45,911 nucleotides of DNA, taken from the NCBI GenBank assembly GCA_902775485.1, contig CACYMJ010000013.1:1-45911 (forward strand), given 5' to 3'. The translations under genes and the position numbers were made by a program. Positions 97 to 14,084 of the stretch are shown here, in pieces (position 1 is the first letter of the stretch; every line of letters begins with the position of its first letter). The notes under the pieces are model-generated. The model saw nothing but the letters and a program-made list of their open reading frames with translations. It was not told where the DNA came from and did no database searches. Source of the DNA: an uncultured Lachnospiraceae bacterium. GTDB lineage: Bacteria > Bacillota > Clostridia > Lachnospirales > Lachnospiraceae.

Positions 97-2028
97 TCAC
101 ACGGCGTTTTCTTTCATAAATCTGATATATGCCGATTTTGTCAGAGGTCTGGAATAATAGAATCCCTGTATCTCATCGACACCCATCTGTCTGAAAGAAT
201 CCACCATCTCCTCAGTCTCAACACCTTCGACAAGCACCTTCAGATTCATGTTCTTGAGCATTTCAATAAGGTTTTTGATGATGACATGGTGGCCTCCGCT
301 CTCCTCCATCTGTACAAACGCACGGTCGAGTTTGACAATATCAAGAGGAAGTGATGCGATCCTCATCAGGTTCGAGTAACCGGTGCCGAAATCATCGAGT
401 GAGAATGAATATCCGCGTTCGGCCAGGGTCTGGATATTTCCGTACAGCTTGGACTGCGAATAACCACTGGCGGTTTCGGTTATCTCGAGATTAAGTTTTG
501 CGGGATCAACATTGTATTTTTCACACAGTGAGATTATCTCATCAGCCAGATTGCTTCGAAGACACTGCATGACCGACAGATTGATCTCGATATAGTCGAC
601 CCCCATCGGGGCAAAATCCGGGGATGCTATGAACTTGATGACCTCTTCAAACACAAAAGATCCTATTGCATGGATCGCTCCGCTCTTCTCGGCGATAGGG
701 ATGAACATTGACGGTGATATATATCCGTATTTGGGATCACGAAGCCTCAGCAGCGCTTCGGCCGACGCGAACCTGCCTGTATTCGTGTCATAAATAGGCT
801 GATAGAATACGGAAAAATAATGATTGGAAAGAGCCCTGTCGATGATCGTCGACATCTCTTTCTTCATAGTGAATTCCTTGGTCTCTGTTATTGTTGACGC
901 CGATACTATCTTTCCGTCTGTCTGCGCGATATCAAGGTCTGCTATGAGCATGAACAATGCGTTAATATCCGAAATGTCATTCGGGCAGTTGACGAGGCAT
1001 GTATTGATCTCCAGTTCAAAATCCGCAACCTCCATCCTTATATTCTGGCGGATGGACCGGCTTATCTCATCGGTTATCTCGCGGGCCGCTCCAAAACTCC
1101 TTTGGGACAGTTCTATCGCGAACTTACCGTCTCCGTTATAGTAGCACATGGCCTGTGCATGGTAGCGCCTCATTATGCGCAGAATCTCACCGGACATCGG
1201 AGACATCATCCTGAGCATCGCATCATATCCGATAATACGCAGAGCGTATTTGTAGTTAACGATGTTGATAAGAATGATATCCATCTGTTTACCGCTTTTG
1301 AAATTGGTATCCATATCCTCGGCAAACACTTTGTAAGTATGCATTCCGGTCGAAAAGTCGATTGAATCCTCTACTCTTCTGTTTATAAGGACAAGCCCGA
1401 GAATACATATGGTGATCGTAAAGTTTATGATATGCTGTCTCGGCGAGAACAGATCGATCAATGCTCCCACTAACACTACCCAAAGCGGAAGAACCAGTAC
1501 ATAGTATCTTTTCCTGTCGATGGGACGGACGTACTGTTTTATGAACCATCCCGTCAGGGCCATATAAAATCCGAATATGATAAGGCCCACGGCATAGCCC
1601 CAGTGTTTATCGAGGCTTCTGTCGGCTGCGATGCCGAAAACCACGGGCTTGAAGAAATTACAGATAAGAAGGCCGATATTAATGAGTATCGGGATCATGC
1701 ACAGAAAAGATCTGATCCGCACTTTCGAAAACTTGTGCCATGTATCTGTCGTTGCTATCGAATAGAGCAAAAACAGCGGCGGGACAAGTGACAGCAGCAG
1801 ATAATATATTACATTGACGTTTATCAGCCTGAATTCGTTAACCGTGCCAAGAGCCGAAAATCTGATCCTCGTGGCATCACATGCGGCGGCACCTATAGCA
1901 GCCCAGACGATGATCGTCATTATGCGTACACGGTATGTACCGTGAACGCTCGTTCGGAAATAGTATACAACTATTACAAAAAGAAGTATCAGTGCACAAT
2001 AATCATATGCAGCTATGTCATTTGCCAT
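97..2028 (-). CDS. Membrane-anchored EAL protein, probably active c-di-GMP phosphodiesterase
   Basis: Protein of 643 residues. The first ~215 residues form about seven hydrophobic segments, a membrane sensor region. A degenerate GGDEF-like domain follows at about 225-380, with YNGDG (297-301) where GGDEF would be. An EAL domain spans about 390-640. The EAL catalytic set is complete by inspection: E424 in EALLR, N483, E515 and E518 in EITET, D545-D546 in DDFGTGYS, K566, E601 in EGVE and Q621. I therefore infer hydrolysis of cyclic di-GMP to pGpG at the inner face of the membrane. The ATG at 2028 follows a GGGGTGAG ribosome site. It is last in a five-gene operon, four bases after its degenerate paralogue. 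The input signal is unknown. Confidence 0.88.
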   Translation of the reverse strand: MANDIAAYDYCALILLFVIVVYYFRTSVHGTYRVRIMTIIVWAAIGAAACDATRIRFSALGTVNEFRLINVNVIYYLLLSLVPPLFLLYSIATTDTWHKFSKVRIRSFLCMIPILINIGLLICNFFKPVVFGIAADRSLDKHWGYAVGLIIFGFYMALTGWFIKQYVRPIDRKRYYVLVLPLWVVLVGALIDLFSPRQHIINFTITICILGLVLINRRVEDSIDFSTGMHTYKVFAEDMDTNFKSGKQMDIILINIVNYKYALRIIGYDAMLRMMSPMSGEILRIMRRYHAQAMCYYNGDGKFAIELSQRSFGAAREITDEISRSIRQNIRMEVADFELEINTCLVNCPNDISDINALFMLIADLDIAQTDGKIVSASTITETKEFTMKKEMSTIIDRALSNHYFSVFYQPIYDTNTGRFASAEALLRLRDPKYGYISPSMFIPIAEKSGAIHAIGSFVFEEVIKFIASPDFAPMGVDYIEINLSVMQCLRSNLADEIISLCEKYNVDPAKLNLEITETASGYSQSKLYGNIQTLAERGYSFSLDDFGTGYSNLMRIASLPLDIVKLDRAFVQMEESGGHHVIIKNLIEMLKNMNLKVLVEGVETEEMVDSFRQMGVDEIQGFYYSRPLTKSAYIRFMKENAV

Positions 2029-2032
2029 CTTC

Positions 2033-3958
2033 TCACCCCATCAGAATGAATCTGATAAGCTCCTTTTTCTCAAGCGGCCTGCAGAAGCAATATCCCTGCA
2101 GGTAATTACATCCAAGTTCGGTAAGACGTCTTTCCGTTTCTTCATTTTCAACGCCGACCGCAACCGATTCAAGTTCAAGATCATGTATCATACGTATGCT
2201 TCCGTCAAAGACCGCCTGGTTTTCCGGTTTGAGTCCCTCACGCACAAAGTTCCTGTCAAGCTTGATACCCGACAGCGGCATCTTCGCGATCCTCTCCACT
2301 TCAAATATACCGGCTCCGAAGTCGTCCATGAGGATCGTAAATCCGACCTGTTTCAGGGCACATATATTGTCACGCATTTTCTCAAATGCATCCGGATTAT
2401 CAACATCGGTTATATTAAAGCATATGTTCTTCGGCTGAACATTGTACTCCCTGATCGTGGACAGAAGTACGGGCAGCAGATCGGACCACATACACTGTAC
2501 CGGTGACAGATTTACCTCTACAAATTCAAGCCCCAGAAGCAGATATTCCGACATTGAAATAAATCTGCATACTTCTTCCAGAACAAACGTCGTTATGGCA
2601 TGTATGGAGTTGATCTTCTCGGCTTCGCTGATGAGCAGATCGGGACTGATATCACCGAAATCCGGATCGTTCAATCTCAGAAAAGCCTCTACCCTGACAA
2701 ACCGTTTATCCTTTACCGAGTATACCGGCTGATAATGAAGCGTGAACAGCTTCTCGCTAAATGCCCTGTCAATGACCTTTACAAGATCGCGTCGAAGTTC
2801 AAATCTCTTTTTATCAAACAGTTTCTCAGCGTAACGCAGTTCCCCGCTGTACGACTCTTTCTCAAGCCGGCCGTCGAACGCAAAAAGAAAATCCGGATCA
2901 TCAATATCCTTGGGACAATTGATAAAGCATACATTGTTCATGACCTTTACGCTCATCTCGCCGACACTGACTTCCTTCGAGAGCACGGAATTGATACCCT
3001 GAGATATGGTCAGCATGTTTTCCTCATATCTCTCATCCGTGATCACCGCAAATCTTCCGCCGCCGAGATAATAAAGATCGGCATCCACGCGGTTCTCGGT
3101 CACCCACTCTTCGAGTCTTTTTGCGGTATCGTTTATAATGTCCTGAACCGTGAAGAAGCCCAGCATCTCTATGAGCGCATTGTAATTTGTCATAACGGAC
3201 AGTGTTATCCCGATAGGCGCACTAAGAACCCGGTACTTGTTTATGTCCGTCACATATGCGTTCATCGAAAACAGGCCCGTCGAGCCGTGCATCCGCTCTT
3301 CCGGTGACTGGACACCGAATACCGTCACGAGAAAAGACACCGCCGTACAGAACATCTGGATATAATACAGCGGGTTCAGCGCCTGTATGATGCTGGATAC
3401 GACCATAATGACAAACACCATGAGAACGCTTATGAGCTTACGTACAGAAAAAAGCCTGCGGTATTTGATGAGTTCATAGTATCCCACGACCGCATACATG
3501 TACGAAACGGCATACAGGGTATAAAAAATCGGCCCTCTTTGATATATTCCGTTTGAATCTATGTAAAATACTATCTTGGTAAAGGGGTTTATAACGATGA
3601 TAAGAATTGAGATCAGCACTATAGGCACCTTGTAGATCATCTCCAGAAGGCGTCTTTCACTCAGCTTATGCCATATTCCTATAAGGGCAAAAAGATAGCC
3701 GCAAAAGATCACGGAGAACATTGTCGCTCCCCACAGATCTATTGTATTGGCTATATAACTCCATACGTTATATCCGCTCCCGAGTTCCTCAAGGAACACC
3801 GCCGCTATATCGGCTCCGGTAGTGAGAATAAGATCTCCCAGAAGGACCAGCGCCCATCTGTTCACACGGCCTCTGGTCATCTTCCGGATCATAAGCGATA
3901 CGAGTATGAGCGCCTCAACTACAAGCGCGCAATAATCATAATAAATAAATCTAATCAA
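2033..3958 (-). CDS. Membrane-anchored degenerate EAL protein, probably non-catalytic c-di-GMP effector
   Basis: Protein of 641 residues with the same layout as the next gene: a multi-pass N-terminus to about residue 215, a degenerate GGDEF-like region (LGGGRF near 298-303), and a C-terminal EAL fold. Conserved EAL positions fall at the same residue numbers as in the neighbour, so the two are collinear paralogues. Here EAL is EAF (424-426), the metal-ligand glutamate of EITE is N515, E518 is D518, and the EGVE glutamate is V601. N483, D545-D546, K566 and Q621 remain. Loss of two glutamates predicts no or very weak phosphodiesterase activity; it may bind c-di-GMP or partner with the active paralogue. 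The start is TTG at 3958, inside the end of the TelA-family gene (8-base overlap), with GGAAAG upstream. The homologous start of the paralogue supports this choice. Confidence 0.85.
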   Translation of the reverse strand: MIRFIYYDYCALVVEALILVSLMIRKMTRGRVNRWALVLLGDLILTTGADIAAVFLEELGSGYNVWSYIANTIDLWGATMFSVIFCGYLFALIGIWHKLSERRLLEMIYKVPIVLISILIIVINPFTKIVFYIDSNGIYQRGPIFYTLYAVSYMYAVVGYYELIKYRRLFSVRKLISVLMVFVIMVVSSIIQALNPLYYIQMFCTAVSFLVTVFGVQSPEERMHGSTGLFSMNAYVTDINKYRVLSAPIGITLSVMTNYNALIEMLGFFTVQDIINDTAKRLEEWVTENRVDADLYYLGGGRFAVITDERYEENMLTISQGINSVLSKEVSVGEMSVKVMNNVCFINCPKDIDDPDFLFAFDGRLEKESYSGELRYAEKLFDKKRFELRRDLVKVIDRAFSEKLFTLHYQPVYSVKDKRFVRVEAFLRLNDPDFGDISPDLLISEAEKINSIHAITTFVLEEVCRFISMSEYLLLGLEFVEVNLSPVQCMWSDLLPVLLSTIREYNVQPKNICFNITDVDNPDAFEKMRDNICALKQVGFTILMDDFGAGIFEVERIAKMPLSGIKLDRNFVREGLKPENQAVFDGSIRMIHDLELESVAVGVENEETERRLTELGCNYLQGYCFCRPLEKKELIRFILMG

Positions 3959-5123
3959 CCTTCAGGCTTTCCTTACTGATCTGTAATATTTTATCTTTCA
4001 TCTCGGTCTCGATACGAACAAGTTCGGTTTCGGCAGCCTGTCTCTTTGCGCGTCCCTCGGCCTGTATCTTCATGACTTCATCAAATGTCTCTATAAGCAT
4101 CTGATTGGTGGTGGTAAGTGTTTCTATGTCCACAATTCCTCTCTCGCTCTCTTTTGCCGAATCGACCGTTGCGATCTTAAGTGCCTCTGCATTCTTCTTG
4201 AGAAGTTCGTTCGTCATATCGGTGACTTCACGCTGCGCCTTTGCGGCATCCTGTGAATGATCAAGTCCGATCGCAATGACCATCTGGCTCTTCCACAGCG
4301 GTATCGTATTTACAAGAGTTGACTGGATCTTCTCAGCCATTACGGTATCATTGCTCTGGATCAGTCGTATCTGCGGGGCCATCTGCATTGAGATGTTCCT
4401 CGTCAGTTCGAGGTCGTATATCTTCTTCTCAAATCTTTCTATCATCGCGGCATAATCCCTGGCAGCCTGTGAGTCTTCCTGAAGCCCGGATTCCTCTGCC
4501 TTTGCGAGAAGCCTCGGCAGTTCCTGTGTCTTGGCTTCGTCAAGTTTTTTCTTGCCCGCTATTATATAGAGACTGAGCTGTTTAAAATAATCGAGGTTTT
4601 CCTCATACATCTTGTCAAGCATGGCAACATCTTTAAGAAGGACCTGCTGATGTCCTTCCATAGCTTTGCTGATCTTGTTGACGTTCACTTCAGCCTTGTC
4701 ATATTTTGCCTTCAGTGATGTAAGCTGATTGCTCCCTCTTTTGAACAGTCCGAGAAATCCTCCCTTTTGTTCCTCAACGGAAAATCCCTTAAGCTCCGTG
4801 ACAACTCCGGTAAGCATCGAACCGATCTCGCCCATGTCCTTTGTCTTGACACTCTTAAGCGCGCCTTCGGAAAAATCGGCAACGTTTTTCTGCGCAGCCG
4901 CACCGTACTGGAGCACCAGCTGGGAATTCGTAATGTCGATCTGTGACATGAAATTTTCAACCTTTGCCTGATCTTCGGCAGAAAGCTGTGACTCCTGTGT
5001 CTCAACTATCTCGGTTCTTTGAGGGGTATTAAGAAGCTGTGCGAGCGGATCCGCCGCGGGCGAATTTACAGCCGCTTCCACCACCTTTTCGTCAACCACC
5101 TGTGCATCGATCACTTCACTCAT
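3951..5123 (-). CDS. TelA-family (toxic anion resistance) protein
   Basis: Protein of 390 residues, almost all helical and highly charged, without a signal peptide or membrane segment. It matches the TelA/YceH family by overall pattern: an N-terminal DPLAQLL-type leader, a central GGFLGLFKRG segment (about 120-130), and long coiled-coil-like helices ending in a conserved ETFDEVMKIQAEGRAKR-type region (about 345-362). Family members were named for tellurite resistance. Their biochemical role is unsettled and is usually discussed as an envelope or stress function together with XpaC. Here the XpaC-family gene is directly upstream with an 8-base overlap, the usual pairing. The ribosome site AAAGGAG precedes the ATG. 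The partner genes downstream are two EAL proteins, which is not the usual context. Confidence 0.82.
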   Translation of the reverse strand: MSEVIDAQVVDEKVVEAAVNSPAADPLAQLLNTPQRTEIVETQESQLSAEDQAKVENFMSQIDITNSQLVLQYGAAAQKNVADFSEGALKSVKTKDMGEIGSMLTGVVTELKGFSVEEQKGGFLGLFKRGSNQLTSLKAKYDKAEVNVNKISKAMEGHQQVLLKDVAMLDKMYEENLDYFKQLSLYIIAGKKKLDEAKTQELPRLLAKAEESGLQEDSQAARDYAAMIERFEKKIYDLELTRNISMQMAPQIRLIQSNDTVMAEKIQSTLVNTIPLWKSQMVIAIGLDHSQDAAKAQREVTDMTNELLKKNAEALKIATVDSAKESERGIVDIETLTTTNQMLIETFDEVMKIQAEGRAKRQAAETELVRIETEMKDKILQISKESLKVD

Positions 5124-6456: not shown

Positions 6457-7920
6457 TCAATCCTTCCGGCCGTGAGTCAACGGCGGTTTCATAACATCCT
6501 GTTCATCTTCGGGGATCACTCCCGAACCGTCAAACGCATACCTTAGGATGTCGGACGGACTGTTGTATATGTACAGTCTGTTATGCCCCTCACCTTCGGC
6601 ATCCGTAATATTTAACATATAAAAAATATCAAACGAATTGTCCCTTCTGACAATAAATCCCTTATACGTGATCCCGTTTACCTCTCCGGCATGCGCACTG
6701 TTTGAGTAGTGGCTCATAACGGCATCCTTAAGCTCGCTGTCACTTTTCTGGCATAAACCGAATATATCACCTGCATCCACTGCCCGTTCGTTTTCTTTGT
6801 CATAGTTGTAACAGCGTATATCCGGATCATCCCCGTTGTTCGGGAATGTACCGAAGGTTGCAGCAAACTGAACGTATCCGTACGAAGTCAGCGGATAGGA
6901 TATTATCTCATGCCACGAACCTTCTTCAACCGGCATATCAGAGTATGCGAGGATCTCATCATCGATACGCGCATTAAGTTCATCCACCCCGGGAAGGTTA
7001 TCGGAGAACGATGCATAGTACAATACCTCATCGATACTATTGACTCCGGTTCCGTCATCTGCACCTGTATCGTTTCCGTACAGGCGCTTCTTTTCAAAGA
7101 GGAAAGGGGTTCCCTCTATTTTATCGGATGTAAGCTTATCCGCGGGACGTACTCCCGTGATCTCATAATAGAACAAGGCCGAGGTCGTTGTATCCCTTGT
7201 GTTTGGTCTCATTCCGTATATAAAACTGACCGTCTCTTCCCCGGTATCGGTGTCGGTCAGTGCCACCTCCATCTCCATCGTGCCGTCCGAATACTGGGTC
7301 ACTCTTCTGACCTCCGGAGCCGATGTTCCACGGTCTATACTCCGGAATCTGTAATTAAGCTCGGTGCTTATCGCCACATCCGGCATCCCGTCATTACCGC
7401 TCTCAAGCGATTCCTTCGGTAACTGCGGTATCTCCCTAAGCTTTCCGAACATTGAATACAGCACATCATCAACAACGCGCGGATAAACCTCGCTGTAATC
7501 GGCAACATGTTCAACCCCCAGTCTTTTGTCGGTACAGTTGATGATGTATTCATGCGCACACTTCCATAAAAACTCCGGCTTATCCTGCCTGTATGCGGTA
7601 TGCAGATCAACGCATGCAAGATTTATTGCATCACAAAGACCGATCATATCGGATACTGCCGGCGGCAGATCTTCAAGATCAAGTTTCTTTGACGTTTTCA
7701 TGGTCGTGTTAACGGTAACGGCACCTTCTTCAGCCGCCTGATCTCCGGTTTCGCCTTCTTCATTATCACTTTGCAGACCGATCAGCACCTGACCGTCCTG
7801 CATTGGATCAACATTCCCGAACGTGCTCTTTTGGGCAGGTTCCTTATCACCGCAGCCGCCAAGGGCAAAAGATACCATTATCACGCACAGTATGATGCAA
7901 ACAGAATAACGCTTTCTCAT
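6457..7920 (-). CDS. Exported lipoprotein of unknown function, first gene of the XpaC-TelA-EAL operon
   Basis: Protein of 487 residues. A positively charged N-terminus and hydrophobic stretch end in an ALGGC lipobox, with the lipidated cysteine at residue 23, so it should be anchored on the outer face of the membrane. An acidic low-complexity linker follows to about residue 75. The rest is soluble and rich in acidic and aromatic residues; I recognise no domain. It heads the operon and has its own promoter 40-67 bases upstream. An outer-surface lipoprotein could feed signals to the membrane EAL proteins in the same operon, but that is inference from position only. The Shine-Dalgarno before the ATG is weak (GTGGG). 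Confidence 0.75.
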   Translation of the reverse strand: MRKRYSVCIILCVIMVSFALGGCGDKEPAQKSTFGNVDPMQDGQVLIGLQSDNEEGETGDQAAEEGAVTVNTTMKTSKKLDLEDLPPAVSDMIGLCDAINLACVDLHTAYRQDKPEFLWKCAHEYIINCTDKRLGVEHVADYSEVYPRVVDDVLYSMFGKLREIPQLPKESLESGNDGMPDVAISTELNYRFRSIDRGTSAPEVRRVTQYSDGTMEMEVALTDTDTGEETVSFIYGMRPNTRDTTTSALFYYEITGVRPADKLTSDKIEGTPFLFEKKRLYGNDTGADDGTGVNSIDEVLYYASFSDNLPGVDELNARIDDEILAYSDMPVEEGSWHEIISYPLTSYGYVQFAATFGTFPNNGDDPDIRCYNYDKENERAVDAGDIFGLCQKSDSELKDAVMSHYSNSAHAGEVNGITYKGFIVRRDNSFDIFYMLNITDAEGEGHNRLYIYNSPSDILRYAFDGSGVIPEDEQDVMKPPLTHGRKD

Positions 7921-7959
7921 ATTTTTAACCCACGATGCTTCTTTTGAACATACATGGTT

Positions 7960-7987
7960 ATTCTATCACAATTTCACGTTTTGTAAA
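7960..7987 (-). promoter_or_regulatory. Sigma-A-type promoter for the lipoprotein-XpaC-TelA-EAL operon
   Basis: On the minus strand TTTACA (7982-7987) and TAGAAT (7960-7965) are separated by 16 bases. Transcription should start near 7953, giving a leader of about 33 bases. The promoter lies directly after the terminator of the upstream gene, which fits an independent transcription unit. Confidence 0.6.
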
Positions 7988-7994
7988 ACCGAAA

Positions 7995-8020
7995 GGAACA
8001 CAGGTACTACCCTGTGTTCC
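7995..8020 (-). terminator. Rho-independent-like terminator after the Fe-S/GGDEF/EAL gene
   Basis: GGAACACAGG (7995-8004) and CCTGTGTTCC (8011-8020) form a perfect 10-bp stem with a six-base loop. On the minus strand it is followed by a moderately U-rich stretch. It lies 31 bases past the stop codon of the 858-residue protein and before the promoter of the next operon. Confidence 0.75.
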
Positions 8021-8051
8021 TCTAAAAAACGCCTGTTGAAATATATCTGAA

Positions 8052-10628
8052 TTACAATCTGTCAGCAAATTCGGACTCCGGCATCGGCCGCGAATAATAG
8101 TACCCCTGTATGGCCGAACATCCCATTGATGAAAGGAGGTCTGCCTGTTCCTTTGTCTCAACGCCTTCGGCTATTATATCCAGTCCCAATCCCCTGGTCA
8201 TGTTGACAACGGATGATATTATTATATTTCCCCTGTCACGGTTTCTTTCGTTCTCTTCCCCGCGCAAAAATCCCATATCAAGCTTAACGATGTCTATCGG
8301 AGCGTCTTTTAACAGATTCAGCGAAGAGTATCCGCTTCCGAAATCATCCATATTTATCTTAAAGCCCATTTCCTGTATATGCCTGACCCTGTCGAAGATC
8401 TCGCTCGTATCACCCACATACGCGCTTTCCGTTATCTCGAACTGTATATAACTGATCGTTTCGGGATATTCTTTTTTCAATCCTTCGATGTAGGAAACGA
8501 TCCCCTCATCCAGAAGACTGATCCGCGAAATATTGACCGACACCGGAACCGCTTTATGTCCGCTTTTGATCCATTTCGAAACCGTCTCGAACGAACTTCT
8601 CCATACATGGCGGTCAAGTTCGGTGATGTATCCGCTCTTTTCAAATACCGGAATAAACACTGCGGGACTTATGATCGATCCGTCCGATCTGACCCATCTT
8701 GACAGCACCTCTGCACCGATCATATCACCTGTCAGATGGTCATATTTGGGCTGGTAATACAGAACAAATTCTCCCCTCTTCATGGCGGATTTCATCTTCT
8801 GTGTGATCTCAGCCTCAAGCGACATGCTCCTTGACATCTCATCGGTATAGAAAATATACGTGTTCCTGCTTCGGTCCTTACATGTTCTGTATGCATAAGT
8901 TGCGTAAAGTGCGGCTCTTGCTATGGTAGTGTTCAGATTATCAAGCCTGTATATCCCGAACTTCATCGCTATCGGATAATCAAGCCCGAGATGTGCTACG
9001 GACAACTGCGTATCCTCTTTGAATCTCGCGAAATTCTGCTCGGTATCCTCAAACAGACATCCGAATGTTCCGGCGCCCATCCTTCCGCAGACTCCTCTTT
9101 TATCGCAGAACTCGGCAAGAACCTTGGCAACATACGTTATCACAAGATCGCCTCCGGTGTTGCCGTACAGGTCATTTATCCCGCCGAGTCCGTTTATATC
9201 GCCGAGGATCATAAGGTACTTTTTGCCGGTATCCGATGCCGCCATCTTTGTCGCCGCCTTGAACAATCCCCGTTGATTGTACAATCCCGTAAGGGAATCA
9301 ATTCCCATCTGGTTCTTCATCTCGTCGTTCAGATAGTGAACGCAGTCTTCTATCCTTGAATAACCGTTCGCGACGGCGCATGCCATTTCATAGCAGCTGT
9401 TATATCCGCATGCCTGGCAGTCGAGTTCCTTTTTGACCTTTGTCGTCTTGTGCATGGATTCGAATATCTCCTCGACGACATTTTCGGGAACCGAGCACTT
9501 CTGCCTGTAGTTTTCCTCTGCATCCCACTCGAAATCACGAAGGTTTATAAACGAATACTTTTCCGTAAGACGCGCATATTTTTCATCTGCGGATATGCTC
9601 CAGTCAGAGTATTCGGACATTGCCTGTTCATATACCTTTACGTATCCGGTTACCGAATTATCCATATTGACCGTTTTCCTATTGATCGCGGGCCCGTCAA
9701 CGCACCCGTTAGCGCAGTGTGCAACGGCAACAAGTGCAGGATGGGCTCCTCTTTCAAGGAATCTGGGCGAACGAAGCATCTTTTCAAACTTCTGATTCAC
9801 TCCCGGTATATATTTGAACAGAAGATTGGCCGGGAAATAACGTGAAACGATACGCGAGAATGACTCACTGTCACACAGTACCGTACCCATGCCTGCACAT
9901 TCGATCTCAAATCCCGAATCGAAAGCCGAGATATCGGTATCTCCGATATATTCGAGCAGACTGGAAAATCCTATAAGATAATTGATGTTCCTTCCCGTAT
10001 TGTATGAACTGAACTCATCATATATCGCCGTACACGGTGAAAGAAGCGCGAACCTGTCGGAAACATTCCTGTATTTACGGTAATATATCGCAGCACATAC
10101 ATCGGGAAGTTGTACCGGTATGAAACTGTCAAGAACATCCGGTGCGTATCTCGAAACGTAATTGGAAAAACCGGGACATGTATGGGCAAAAAACTTATCG
10201 CTTTTTCCCTCGTCATCCATATTGGCATGCAGATACTCTGTATGGCAGAAAATACTGATATCTCCTCCCACCGAGCCGTCGTAGACTCCCTTCACGCCGA
10301 GACTCTTCAGATAGCCGAATATCTGCCTGGACCTTTCCATACCGTATGCCACGATGAATGCCGGATCGACGATGACGGAAATCTCGTTTCCCCTGTCAAG
10401 GTCATTGAGAAACTCCCCAAGGCTGTCCTTGTACTCTCTCGCGCCGTGCAGACAGGCATTGATACACTTTCCGCAATGAATACAGTTCTTGTCGGATACG
10501 TCTATACTGATCCTTCCGTTATCGTTGGCAGAGATATTGGCTCCAACGGCAGGACAGACATGAACACAGTGGTTGCATGCAACGCATCTGTCGTTTGTAT
10601 ATATCATTCCGTCGTTATATCGTCTCAC
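8052..10628 (-). CDS. Ferredoxin / [FeFe]-hydrogenase-like / Fe-S / GGDEF-EAL fusion, probable redox- or gas-sensing c-di-GMP enzyme
   Basis: Soluble protein of 858 residues. Two 4Fe-4S motifs open it (C15, C18, C21, C25 and C49, C52, C55, C59). Residues ~80-330 resemble the large-subunit fold of [FeFe]-hydrogenases, with cysteines where the H-cluster ligands sit: C151 (HTCPGF), C199 (SPCTAIYDE), C305 and C309 (HCANGCVDGP). A CxxCGxxxC Fe-S motif follows (C404, C407, C412, C429). A GGDEF domain (440-600) has GAGTF at 518-522, so cyclase activity is unlikely. The EAL domain (605-858) keeps E640, N699, E731, E734, D761-D762, K782, E821 and Q841, so phosphodiesterase activity is likely. The proton-relay cysteine is T150 and the lysine of PCxxK is I202, so it may bind only a 4Fe-4S cluster and act as a sensor rather than a hydrogenase. 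The start is GTG at 10628, preceded by GGGAGGG. It follows the FIST gene by 21 bases. Confidence 0.85.
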   Translation of the reverse strand: MRRYNDGMIYTNDRCVACNHCVHVCPAVGANISANDNGRISIDVSDKNCIHCGKCINACLHGAREYKDSLGEFLNDLDRGNEISVIVDPAFIVAYGMERSRQIFGYLKSLGVKGVYDGSVGGDISIFCHTEYLHANMDDEGKSDKFFAHTCPGFSNYVSRYAPDVLDSFIPVQLPDVCAAIYYRKYRNVSDRFALLSPCTAIYDEFSSYNTGRNINYLIGFSSLLEYIGDTDISAFDSGFEIECAGMGTVLCDSESFSRIVSRYFPANLLFKYIPGVNQKFEKMLRSPRFLERGAHPALVAVAHCANGCVDGPAINRKTVNMDNSVTGYVKVYEQAMSEYSDWSISADEKYARLTEKYSFINLRDFEWDAEENYRQKCSVPENVVEEIFESMHKTTKVKKELDCQACGYNSCYEMACAVANGYSRIEDCVHYLNDEMKNQMGIDSLTGLYNQRGLFKAATKMAASDTGKKYLMILGDINGLGGINDLYGNTGGDLVITYVAKVLAEFCDKRGVCGRMGAGTFGCLFEDTEQNFARFKEDTQLSVAHLGLDYPIAMKFGIYRLDNLNTTIARAALYATYAYRTCKDRSRNTYIFYTDEMSRSMSLEAEITQKMKSAMKRGEFVLYYQPKYDHLTGDMIGAEVLSRWVRSDGSIISPAVFIPVFEKSGYITELDRHVWRSSFETVSKWIKSGHKAVPVSVNISRISLLDEGIVSYIEGLKKEYPETISYIQFEITESAYVGDTSEIFDRVRHIQEMGFKINMDDFGSGYSSLNLLKDAPIDIVKLDMGFLRGEENERNRDRGNIIISSVVNMTRGLGLDIIAEGVETKEQADLLSSMGCSAIQGYYYSRPMPESEFADRL

Positions 10629-10649
10629 TTGGCAACCCTCCCACCGGCA

Positions 10650-11774
10650 TCACTCAAAAGCCAGTATAAGCATCGTCTGGTTCAGATGCCTGTATGCAAA
10701 CTGCTCTCCGTGTCCGCTCACACCTATATAATCGGGATAGTACTCTGTCAGCTTATCATTGTATTCGCCCATTTTACCCGTTTCGGTAAAATACTTAAGT
10801 CTTGAGAAGCAGTTTATGATAAAAGCAAACGAAGGATCCTTTATAAGTGCATGGGTTCTGTTTGACGTATCAAGCCAGACCTGTTCCACAGGCTCTATGG
10901 GATCAAGCAGTACCACTCTCGTCTGGTTGTAGATCCTGGAGAAAAAGCTCAAACTGCCGTCAGAAAACTGTTCCTTTACGGCAATGATGTTAAGATCGTC
11001 GTTTTCTATCCTTCCGACCGGATGGAAAAAGGCATTGGCTCCAAGCTCATCCTCAGGTATATGCATGGCCGATGCAAGTGCGCCAGTGGCCGTCCTGTGA
11101 TCGAACTCATATACCTTCCTTGCATCGCAGTCCACATCGGTTGCAACAAGAAAATGCTCGGTCGGACTGAACATGTTCTCCTTGACTATGGCTATCCTGC
11201 CCATTTCGTTATGTATGAACGCAAAAACGCAGGCATCCATATACAATATACCGTTAAGCGAAACAGCGGAGGGCTTGTCCGGGTTGACTGCCGCTGCTGC
11301 CGTACAACCGCACAGCGGTATCCCCGTATCAGCCATGATCTCATAAAACGTATCCATTACAAGTTCTTCGCAGTTACCGACAGATGCGTTAAATTCCAGG
11401 CACACCGTGTTTTCCCTCTCAACGGATCCCATGGCGGCTATGACTGATTCGGCCGATCGTTTCGGATATCGGCTGACCTCGAATATGACACCTGAAGAAA
11501 CCGAAAGTCCCTCCGTCACAGCCATAACAGACAGTCCGACTCTGTGAACGGTGCCCGGCGAATACATCGTGTCGGAGGTTGTTCCGATCACGGTTGCATT
11601 CGGAAATGAATTGGAAAGCATTCTTGAATACCAGCCGAAATTGGCATTATCCGAAGTGAATATGACAAGGACCGGGGATATCAGTTCCCCGTTCTCCTTA
11701 AGCTGTTCCAGCATCTGCGGATATGCTTTGGTACCTATCTTCTCATCCACGCTGGCTGTATAACATCTTTTCAT
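10650..11774 (-). CDS. FIST domain sensor protein
   Basis: Protein of 374 residues from the ATG at 11774, chosen because GGGGGG precedes it; a longer reading from 11822 has no good ribosome site. The FIST_N part contains PVLVIFTSDNANF and the NATVIGTTSD turn. The FIST_C part contains ANAFFHPVG near residue 240 and ends with a YIGVSGHGEQFAYRHLNQT-type segment. FIST domains are predicted small-ligand sensors that accompany signalling proteins. No transmembrane segment is seen, so it is cytoplasmic. It sits directly upstream of the hydrogenase-like GGDEF-EAL protein and probably supplies its second input. An AT-rich palindrome lies just upstream. Confidence 0.85.
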   Translation of the reverse strand: MKRCYTASVDEKIGTKAYPQMLEQLKENGELISPVLVIFTSDNANFGWYSRMLSNSFPNATVIGTTSDTMYSPGTVHRVGLSVMAVTEGLSVSSGVIFEVSRYPKRSAESVIAAMGSVERENTVCLEFNASVGNCEELVMDTFYEIMADTGIPLCGCTAAAAVNPDKPSAVSLNGILYMDACVFAFIHNEMGRIAIVKENMFSPTEHFLVATDVDCDARKVYEFDHRTATGALASAMHIPEDELGANAFFHPVGRIENDDLNIIAVKEQFSDGSLSFFSRIYNQTRVVLLDPIEPVEQVWLDTSNRTHALIKDPSFAFIINCFSRLKYFTETGKMGEYNDKLTEYYPDYIGVSGHGEQFAYRHLNQTMLILAFE

Positions 11775-11804
11775 AGAGCCCCCCAAGAAAATGAACAGAG
11801 CATA

Positions 11805-11835
11805 TTTATAACATTTTAACATTAAATGTTATAAA
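11805..11835. promoter_or_regulatory. AT-rich 12-bp inverted repeat upstream of the FIST gene
   Basis: TTTATAACATTT (11805-11816) and AAATGTTATAAA (11824-11835) are perfect inverted arms around a seven-base spacer. It lies 30 bases before the FIST start and 24 bases after the stop of the DUF2298 gene. It has no GC core, so it is a weak terminator and more likely a protein-binding operator. The surrounding sequence is AT-rich enough for a promoter, but I cannot assign one -10/-35 pair with confidence. Confidence 0.45.
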
Positions 11836-11858
11836 ATAACAGAACATTTTGTATATTT

Positions 11859-14084
11859 TCACAATTTGGATCTGTCTACCCTGATAAGCATAAGATCACA
11901 GCCCTGCCACTGTTCGCTTACGCACACTTTTCCAAGGTTCTTAAAGCCTTCTGCGTTTACAGGATATTTGCATACTTCAGCCGGACCTACGAAAATATAA
12001 TCGATATCATACAGTTTTATGAAGTTCCTGCAAAACTGTTCATTTCCGGAAGTGTAAAAATAAGAAACGTAATCCGCCCTCTCCCTTACCGGTCCGGCAT
12101 CGTTATGCCACATCCATTCATGAACGAACCAGCCCACCGGAGTACATGCTCCGGAGTATACAGACAACGCATCCTGATGCGAATAACTGTCTCCGGCAGC
12201 CTCCACGATATTGACTACATTGCTATCGTCATCATCAAGGATATCACAGGCCTTCATCTCGAATCCGTAGACCGGATCGTCCCTTAATCCCTCTACGGAT
12301 GATATGCCTGTTCTTTTCCCGGGATCTGTTATGTCTCCAAGCCATTGATGTGCCGCATATACAGTATATGACGCCGACATGACTGTGTATAATGCCGCAG
12401 CAACCGTCAAAATGTAATAAAACACCGATCTACCCTTTGCACTTACCAGTTCGTATACAAGTATCGAAAAAAGCAGTCCTGCGATAAATGCAAACAGCAC
12501 GTAGGCCTGATACGTCAGCTTGAACATCGTATTGAAACGCCTGTTATCAGCGCCATAGATATCGCGGACATATATCAGCTCCGGAACTATGATAAGTCCT
12601 ATGGTACACAAAACAAATGACAACAGTCCCGCCCTGCACACTTTATCAAACTCCCGGCGCCCCCGCTTTCCGAAATAAAGGACTGTGATAAGACCGGCCG
12701 CCGCAATAACCGGCAGCATCCAGAGAACGGCAAACTTGAATAACGGTGTATGAGTTTCGCATAATTCTATCCCGGATTCCATTTTTATAAAATGCATCGT
12801 AAAGGGAAGAGGTGAAATAATGCTGATCGCGGTTATAAACAACGCTTTTGAAACGATCTCGGTTATCGCTGCGGATATATGAACAAAACGTTTGATATCG
12901 CAGAATACGATCACAGCTCCGGTGATCACATAATAGATCGCAAAATCCCAGTAATTGCTGCCTTTGTAGTATCCCAAAAGCATGGATACCAGTAACAGCG
13001 CATATATGATACGCGCATTTGACCACCATCTTTTTGTATTGTCCGCGCTCTGTATGCAATGATCGAACAACAGTGCCAGAAGCGGAAGGACCAGCATCAG
13101 GTTTATGACATGGGCATGAAGATCTCCGAGGATGACCGAATACGCGGGAAACTCGTTTTTGCCGTTATCCGGATCTCCCAGTTCGGAACGGATAAACACC
13201 GTCCCGTCGGGAAACCAGTAATCCTTGTCAGGCACCCGGCCCGTTATCTTTTGTATAAGCGGGGACATTATCCCATAGAAAAACCAGTGCGGGTTCGCGC
13301 CGAACGCCGCAAGCAATCCACCGACTATGCCGCCTGCGACCGCACACCTGCCTGTGTGCTCTTTATCGGTAAACAGTGCCCCTGCAACACCCGCCGTAAG
13401 CTCGAACACCATCAAAAACACCATGCCGGCAAATGTTGCAAGCAGCATGTTGTATCCGAATTCAGTGGTATTCTGTCCCAGGCGCAGCAGTAAAACACAC
13501 AGAGCCTGCCCGAGATAATAATAATTGAGCGTATCCGTTGCAAACCATATGTCATTCGGAATCGCAGCCTCCTGCCGCATTATGGTCCTGATAAATCCGT
13601 AATCCATATAGTTTTCGGTTCCCGCGTCAACAAGCGGATTAAATCCTATCATCCAGAAGAAAGCGAGGAAGATAACGGCAAATACCGCAAAACCTCCCAG
13701 AAAACGCTTAAACTCAGCATGTGTTACATATGCTTCTTTCAGTATGTATTTCTTTATCAGACAGCCCGATAAAGCCATTACAAGAAATGTTATAAAGATC
13801 ACCGGATCGGCATACCTGCACAATCCAAGCGCCGACAGCGTCCATGCCGGAAAGAAACAGATAAAAGCCCCCAGGCCGAAATCCATGGCAAACCCCGCAT
13901 CCGGAAATACCAGGTTTCGTATCGGATTAAAAGGGCGCATGAAAAAAGATACCGAAAACACAACCGCCAAATGACGAAGTGCAGCTGTATTTCCGGTATC
14001 ATCCATTATCAGAAAAAGAATTATAACAACCGCGATCACTGCCGGACTAAAAAAGTCCGAACAGTTTCTCCTGAAACGATCCAT
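11859..14084 (-). CDS. DUF2298 (YYY-type) multi-pass membrane protein
   Basis: About 741 residues from the ATG at 14084, which has GAGG six bases upstream. A longer frame begins at 14144 but would overlap the preceding gene by 98 bases. There are many transmembrane helices. Family marks are the TENYMDYGF segment, the DTLNYYYLGQ motif, ILGDLHAHV, and RFNTMFKLTYQAYVLFA near the C-terminal third. DUF2298 proteins are large integral membrane proteins resembling GT-C glycosyltransferases; the substrate is unknown. The C-terminal ~120 residues are soluble and probably extracellular. It overlaps the 145-residue unknown gene by 38 bases, so the two are translationally linked. Confidence 0.78.
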   Translation of the reverse strand: MDRFRRNCSDFFSPAVIAVVIILFLIMDDTGNTAALRHLAVVFSVSFFMRPFNPIRNLVFPDAGFAMDFGLGAFICFFPAWTLSALGLCRYADPVIFITFLVMALSGCLIKKYILKEAYVTHAEFKRFLGGFAVFAVIFLAFFWMIGFNPLVDAGTENYMDYGFIRTIMRQEAAIPNDIWFATDTLNYYYLGQALCVLLLRLGQNTTEFGYNMLLATFAGMVFLMVFELTAGVAGALFTDKEHTGRCAVAGGIVGGLLAAFGANPHWFFYGIMSPLIQKITGRVPDKDYWFPDGTVFIRSELGDPDNGKNEFPAYSVILGDLHAHVINLMLVLPLLALLFDHCIQSADNTKRWWSNARIIYALLLVSMLLGYYKGSNYWDFAIYYVITGAVIVFCDIKRFVHISAAITEIVSKALFITAISIISPLPFTMHFIKMESGIELCETHTPLFKFAVLWMLPVIAAAGLITVLYFGKRGRREFDKVCRAGLLSFVLCTIGLIIVPELIYVRDIYGADNRRFNTMFKLTYQAYVLFAFIAGLLFSILVYELVSAKGRSVFYYILTVAAALYTVMSASYTVYAAHQWLGDITDPGKRTGISSVEGLRDDPVYGFEMKACDILDDDDSNVVNIVEAAGDSYSHQDALSVYSGACTPVGWFVHEWMWHNDAGPVRERADYVSYFYTSGNEQFCRNFIKLYDIDYIFVGPAEVCKYPVNAEGFKNLGKVCVSEQWQGCDLMLIRVDRSKL

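Follow-up and report, generated by a model that had tools for sequence, protein, structure and literature searches.

Sensory [FeFe] hydrogenases of groups C and D (TmHydS, TamHydS; HydDB classes C1-C3) share two N-terminal 4Fe-4S motifs, an H-domain with four cysteines, a C-terminal 4Fe-4S motif, a signalling output and the lack of the relay cysteine. In these sensors C299, M353 and M497 are described as altered, and the cysteines and the residues hydrogen-bonded to the [2Fe] subcluster as conserved (PMC10055695, available part); the C299 position is mostly alanine in both groups (PMC10407848, available part). The group C classes of HydDB are kinase-linked, chemotactic and phosphatase-linked, with no c-di-GMP phosphodiesterase output in the available part of that source, where the one class tied to c-di-GMP is [NiFe] group 2c, a putative diguanylate-cyclase-linked sensor of hydrogenase type proposed to act via c-di-GMP (PMC5037454). 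FIST proteins are likewise coupled to c-di-GMP output in NosP-NahK-NarR and other FIST/NosP systems, NosP raising phosphodiesterase activity via a kinase in the former (PMC8846402, available part). The words hydrogenase, Fe-S and iron-sulfur are absent from the main text of the 2022 census of c-di-GMP sensory inputs (PMC8846402). No paper on an [FeFe]-hydrogenase-type module fused to an EAL domain was found by title or abstract opening among the matches listed, a scope that leaves most subscription journals outside. Eukaryotic Nar1/IOP1/NARF are hydrogenase-like proteins with the cysteines kept, which bind only 4Fe-4S clusters and have no known signalling output.

The window studied here, the whole stretch of DNA analysed (45,911 nucleotides from an uncultured Lachnospiraceae bacterium), contains a gene pair related to all of these. 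Its large protein differs from the sensory [FeFe] hydrogenases by a probable phosphodiesterase output, by changed residues at the A230 and K358 positions and by a FIST partner; from [NiFe] group 2c, which is a [NiFe] protein, it also differs in being linked to c-di-GMP breakdown and not to synthesis. Compared with the NosP systems, the gene pair misses the NosP cut-off, contains no kinase relay and has FIST paired with an Fe-S protein. The large protein resembles Nar1/IOP1/NARF in its kept cysteines and in its proposed 4Fe-4S-only content, and differs from them by its signalling output and bacterial host. The features are as follows.

8052 to 10628, minus strand: large protein, 858 aa, with two Fer4 motifs, an Fe_hyd_lg_C-like domain, an FeS motif, a degenerate GGDEF domain and an EAL domain (ORF list, Pfam, orthologue alignment)
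10440 to 10607, minus strand: two ferredoxin-type 4Fe-4S motifs, residues 8-63, with C15, C18, C21, C25 and C49, C52, C55, C59 (Pfam, alignments)
9690 to 10382, minus strand: hydrogenase-like (H) domain, residues 83-313, with C151, C199, C305 and C309 (Pfam, alignments, profile match)
9339 to 9425, minus strand: C-terminal FeS motif PF04060, residues 402-430, with C404, C407, C412 and C429 (Pfam, alignments)
8862 to 9302, minus strand: degenerate GGDEF domain, residues 443-589, with GAGTF (Pfam, motif reading)
8085 to 8795, minus strand: EAL domain, residues 612-848, with the expected catalytic residues (Pfam, alignments)
10650 to 11774, minus strand: FIST / FIST_C protein, immediately upstream of the large protein, with a gap of 21 nt (Pfam, adjacency in the clade)
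2033 to 3958, minus strand: downstream EAL-domain protein, a neighbour whose link to the FIST/large-protein system is putative at most (neighbourhood comparison, Pfam)
97 to 2028, minus strand: second downstream EAL-domain protein, likewise a neighbour with a putative link at most (neighbourhood comparison, Pfam)

The large protein was confirmed as real and unusual. Its reading frame (8052-10628, minus strand) starts with GTG, with a GGGAGGG run on the 5' side, and all its Pfam scores were above the curated cut-offs: 208 bits for EAL (PF00563), 60.8 for Fe_hyd_lg_C (cut-off 22.1), 55.4 for GGDEF, 33.1 for Fer4_10 and 29.3 for FeS (PF04060). Pfam and the alignments thus agreed with the first-pass annotation, which had described ferredoxin motifs, four cysteines at H-cluster positions, a further Fe-S motif, a degenerate GGDEF and an EAL in one chain, and whose numbering (C151, C199, C305, C309, T150 and I202) was exact. 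The scores obtained with the NCBIfam models of the catalytic groups A and B were far under the cut-offs (96.6 of 450 bits for TIGR04105 and 64.9 of 405.95 for TIGR02512), so that by these models it is no catalytic enzyme of either group. Its layout, two Fer4 motifs, Fe_hyd_lg_C with four ligand cysteines and a C-terminal FeS motif, is that of sensory groups C and D. A profile of 56 modules matched the Fe-hydrogenase subunit alpha chain of 7p5h with 131.5 bits across all three H-cluster motifs, and the four module cysteines aligned with its ligand motifs CCPAW, MPCTAKK and MACNYGC. To judge from its residues, the N-terminal half looks like a hydrogenase-derived Fe-S module that has kept the ligands and lost residues of the hydrogen-splitting site.

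Matches to this N-terminal half were present in 39 of 61 genomes, the window's own included (E <= 1e-20). Ten genomes of the same genus had full-length orthologues, 66-69% identical over the entire chain. A profile scan of named genomes gave 31 loci: ten close ones (L089-L098, which correspond to these ten orthologue genomes), two 30% identical along the query (L099 and L100) and 19 partial matches. The close loci came from MAGs titled Lachnospiraceae, three of which are named after ruminant gut samples (buffalo rumen, sheep rumen and goat jejunum). Among 120 module rows, which are part of the module matches listed and whose outputs were called against reference domains (Pfam agreed in 10 of 10 checked), the C-terminal output was a chemoreceptor in 59, a kinase with or without receiver in 34, GGDEF with EAL in 19, EAL alone in two and GGDEF alone in two; none was found in four. 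This range of outputs indicates that the N-terminal half is a widespread, general sensor module. The PAS, kinase and phosphatase modules named beforehand as the partners of known sensory hydrogenases leave out the chemoreceptor-linked class C2 (PMC5037454, available part).

Sixteen cysteines were invariant in all 11 rows of the window type (window and ten same-genus orthologues), and across the order all but one of the modules had the full set (118/119); the sole row short of it, L179, has a gap over the first eight, and its frame starts at base 3 of a contig. The hydrogenase-like cysteine pattern is therefore not due to chance. Residues D88, T150 and I202 were mapped through alignments of the H-domain and of the 56-module profile, together with the L2 motif, to what we take to be the CpI positions A230, C299 and K358; A230 and K358 are presumably among the residues holding the [2Fe] subcluster. 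Position 88 was D in 13 of the 14 members of the FIST-linked clade described below and in 11/11 window-type proteins, outside the clade being D in 1/107 modules and A in 98/107. Position 202 was K in 101 of the 107 modules outside the clade and I or M in 11/11 window-type proteins, the lysine being lost in 13/14 clade members (arginine in two, of genomes G519 and G270) versus 6/107 other modules. Position 150 was a cysteine in 0/119 modules, P in 102/107 outside the clade and T or N throughout the window type (11/11). The PGG motif, present in most relatives displayed, was missing from the window-type rows displayed.

The loss of the relay cysteine thus says little, since none of the 119 modules has it and groups C and D have mostly alanine there (PMC10407848, available part). 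The changes at 88 and 202 are the unusual part, because sensory enzymes are stated to keep the residues holding [2Fe] (PMC10055695, available part), unlike the 11/11 window-type proteins, which lack the conserved residues at both positions. The first-pass annotation had taken T150 and I202 together as signs of a sensor; I202 is unusual, and the missing cysteine at 150 carries little weight. Retention of the cluster ligands while the [2Fe] pocket changes points to 4Fe-4S clusters without [2Fe], the fallback of that annotation, which is supported by the 16 kept cysteines and the changed pocket positions.

The gene immediately upstream of the large protein, overlooked earlier, probably starts at ATG 11774, which a GGGGGG run precedes; in the mechanical ORF list its frame starts at 11822. 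Its product reached 68 bits with the FIST model PF08495 (cut-off 23.2) and 27.8 of 28.5 bits, just under the cut-off, with FIST_C; the cut-off of the NosP model NF041558 was missed (79.8 of 450 bits). A FIST gene stood immediately upstream of the large-protein gene in 14/14 clade members, of four genera. Inside the window's genus (11/11) this adjacency is part of a wider synteny, so only the three other genera count as independent support. Genomes G519, G553 and G270 are each from a different genus, the first two having been found from the FIST side, outside the 117 module loci; identities to the window proteins were 42, 39 and 31%, respectively, for the large protein and 41, 39 and 35% for FIST. 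In the 10 to 18 kb around these three pairs, of the 13 window genes compared, only FIST and the large protein had matches, apart from cross-matches between EAL domains.

The FIST profile matched in 72 of 397 genomes of the family and in 19 of 398 of the phylum. The module stood beside FIST in five of the best 50 FIST loci (window genome, congener G025, G519, G553 and G270); a chemoreceptor-signal ORF was directly downstream in 33 (31 within the gap limit and two with longer frame overlaps) and upstream in one, and 11 had neither the module nor such an ORF alongside. As a chemoreceptor ORF stands beside most of these best 50, FIST usually accompanies signalling outputs. In the common FIST-chemoreceptor pair (L198-L234) the downstream ORF is soluble and of roughly 320 aa. 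Among the 117 module loci the FIST profile matched in the 11 of the window type and in G270, and gave no match among ORFs of at least 200 aa in the other 105, many of which had flanks of only 1.5 kb. On this count (0/105) the idea that FIST goes with the module family in general was rejected, ten neighbouring ORFs being other than FIST by Pfam. Also dropped was an operator palindrome before the FIST start (11805-11836, perfect 12-nt arms and a 7-nt spacer), which was not matched in relatives: of 13 other FIST upstream stretches, one of them truncated where its contig ends, two had 8-nt repeats elsewhere and the rest none of at least 8 nt. A scan of 7850-12000 gave six promoter-like sites (shuffled mean 7.0, sd 2.4) and five terminator-like sites (shuffled mean 2.9, sd 2.0), and these sites were set aside.

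Downstream of the system, the region 97-5123 holds TelA as well as both EAL-domain genes, which stand in tandem. In 10/11 genus members this EAL pair lay near the system, whole or as far as the contig or stretch reached; it was not seen in 7.7 kb downstream in G018 (L060).

In a tree of 49 modules, for which no root was inferred and in which several long or deep rows (G270, G553) are less surely placed, with a warning on L189, a branch supported at 100/100 separated the 14 FIST-linked proteins from the rest. This clade spans four genera of one family, and G553 splits off first. In a quick tree that left out G519 and G553, G270 grouped next to the window type (support 86, with a long-branch warning). 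Residues 88, 150 and 202 were A, P and K in G553; D, S and R in G519; D, T and R in G270; and D, T or N, and I or M in the window genus. All 16 cysteines were complete in 14/14 members, G519, G553 and G270 included. Since the outermost G553 has A, P and K like most other modules, the simplest account places the pocket change within the clade.

Nine other GGDEF-EAL proteins formed a separate, well-supported part of the tree, among chemoreceptor and kinase types. This second fusion type (L035, L038, L042-L044, L055-L058), from the same genus and with the same domain order as the window protein, differs from it in having kept the pocket residues (A88, P150 and K202 in 9/9), in lying on another branch and in that no FIST gene was found in the surroundings examined. 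With GGDEF-EAL on two separate branches, the simplest reading is that the module acquired c-di-GMP outputs on two occasions. This other type had escaped the first-pass annotation, which had proposed a family search for the same architecture. Its proposal that an Fe-S module is coupled to c-di-GMP breakdown stands as far as the fusion to a probable phosphodiesterase goes; H2 as the signal is weakened by the changes at 88 and 202 in 11/11. With its ordinary pocket residues, the second type appears a better candidate for coupling H2 to c-di-GMP than the window protein.

On the output side, the active-site motif GG(D/E)EF was absent from the large protein, residues 518-522 being G-A-G-T-F. The catalytic residues known from other EAL enzymes (here E640, N699, E731, D761, D762, K782, E821 and Q841) were present and invariant in 11/11 (window and ten same-genus orthologues), and those expected were also present in G519 and G553. 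From its EAL domain and these residues, the large protein is a probable c-di-GMP phosphodiesterase. The G270 member (L189:6936-10394) has the same gene pair and a degenerate EAL with the catalytic residues lost, so that not every clade member has hydrolysis as its output; its chain is extended at the C-terminus, where a PAS domain was found, and two ORFs of kinase-receiver type lie downstream of it.

HydF and HydG were above the cut-offs in 4/11 orthologue genomes, the window genome being among those with both. No HydF above its cut-off was found in the seven orthologue genomes without HydG (HydG search at E <= 0.001), and no HydG match in G519, G553 or G270 (3/3, at 1e-10); HydG was thus not found in 10/14 genomes of the clade. 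Where it is present (4/14), the [2Fe] subcluster could be made. In the wider set, HydG was found in 33 of 61 genomes (E <= 1e-60) and a Fe_hyd_lg_C match in 61/61. The 14 [FeFe] hydrogenases examined from HydG-less genomes comprised 11 of TSCCP type with intact second and third motifs, including those of the seven orthologue genomes, and three with TSCSP. G519, G553 and G270 (L245-L248, L251, L254), though without HydG, have [FeFe] hydrogenases with intact ligand motifs. Because HydG-less genomes still encode such hydrogenases, the maturase genes do not decide the cluster content, and their absence was rejected as proof of a missing H-cluster. Other HydG-less genomes with intact [FeFe] hydrogenases, up to 99% complete, include G029, G010, G003 and G057 (L069, L070, L071, L083), G057 being a single contig. 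Group A-like hydrogenases with TSCSPGW for TSCCPGW, and thus with serine where the motif normally has its second cysteine, were seen at L080, L081, L082, L084, L085 and L087.

We consider it an evenly balanced proposition that the locus is a two-gene signalling unit, found in gut bacteria of Lachnospiraceae type, of a FIST receptor and a phosphodiesterase with a retired [FeFe]-hydrogenase module, which would carry up to four [4Fe-4S] clusters and no [2Fe]. The FIST protein would be a separate ligand-binding receptor subunit, its ligand and its contact with the large protein being presumed. The N-terminal half would hold two ferredoxin-like clusters, one at the old H-cluster site and one C-terminal, whose state might be changed by low-potential electron carriers (e.g., reduced ferredoxin) or by O2 or NO damage. 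The states of the clusters and of FIST would then pass via the C-terminal cluster to the dead, regulatory GGDEF and switch EAL activity, in one direction or the other. The fuller version of this model, in which a fossil hydrogenase, within one clade, lost its [2Fe] pocket but none of its cluster ligands and so became a four-cluster gauge of ferredoxin potential that, with FIST, directly sets c-di-GMP breakdown, is more tentative, and we would put it well short of even.

Binding of a full H-cluster, with H2 sensed and c-di-GMP lowered in response, seems unlikely. In its favour, the four ligand cysteines are all kept, the architecture matches group C/D sensors as far as the FeS motif, HydF and HydG were found above their cut-offs in the window genome, and TmHydS and TamHydS accept synthetic [2Fe] though C299 is missing, M497 also being replaced in TmHydS (PMC10055695, PMC10407848, available parts). 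This reading is opposed by the changes at the A230 and K358 positions in 11/11 window-type proteins (D; I or M), against K in 101/107 others, in a setting where sensory enzymes are stated to conserve the residues that hold [2Fe] (PMC10055695, available part), A230 and K358 presumably among them. The absence of HydG in 10/14 genomes is a weak point on the same side, as other [FeFe] hydrogenases remain there. Given the FIST linkage and the 16 cysteines kept while pocket residues decay, a FIST-coupled, 4Fe-4S-only sensor of redox state or of a small molecule, acting on c-di-GMP hydrolysis, appears likelier than H2 sensing.

It is also improbable, in our judgement, that the Fe-S clusters are structural and non-switching, FIST alone being the sensor and the old module a docking scaffold between FIST and GGDEF-EAL. 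The adjacency of FIST in 14/14 would fit such a scaffold, but in the 105 loci without a FIST match the module is found with outputs of several kinds (chemoreceptor, kinase, GGDEF, other GGDEF-EAL), so that it presumably signals elsewhere without FIST. A role as c-di-GMP receptor or trigger protein, and not as active phosphodiesterase, which the G270 member with its lost catalytic residues and added PAS domain might suggest, is very doubtful in view of the expected catalytic residues, which are invariant in the window type and which G519 and G553 also have.

Joined directly to the module on two separate branches, c-di-GMP breakdown adds an output to the [FeFe] group C sensors. The clade forms a natural series from an ordinary pocket (G553) to a lost one (window genus), which makes what sensory hydrogenases sense testable by comparison. 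If the four-cluster gauge of ferredoxin potential is real, it would let these bacteria translate their fermentative redox balance into lifestyle in a single step.
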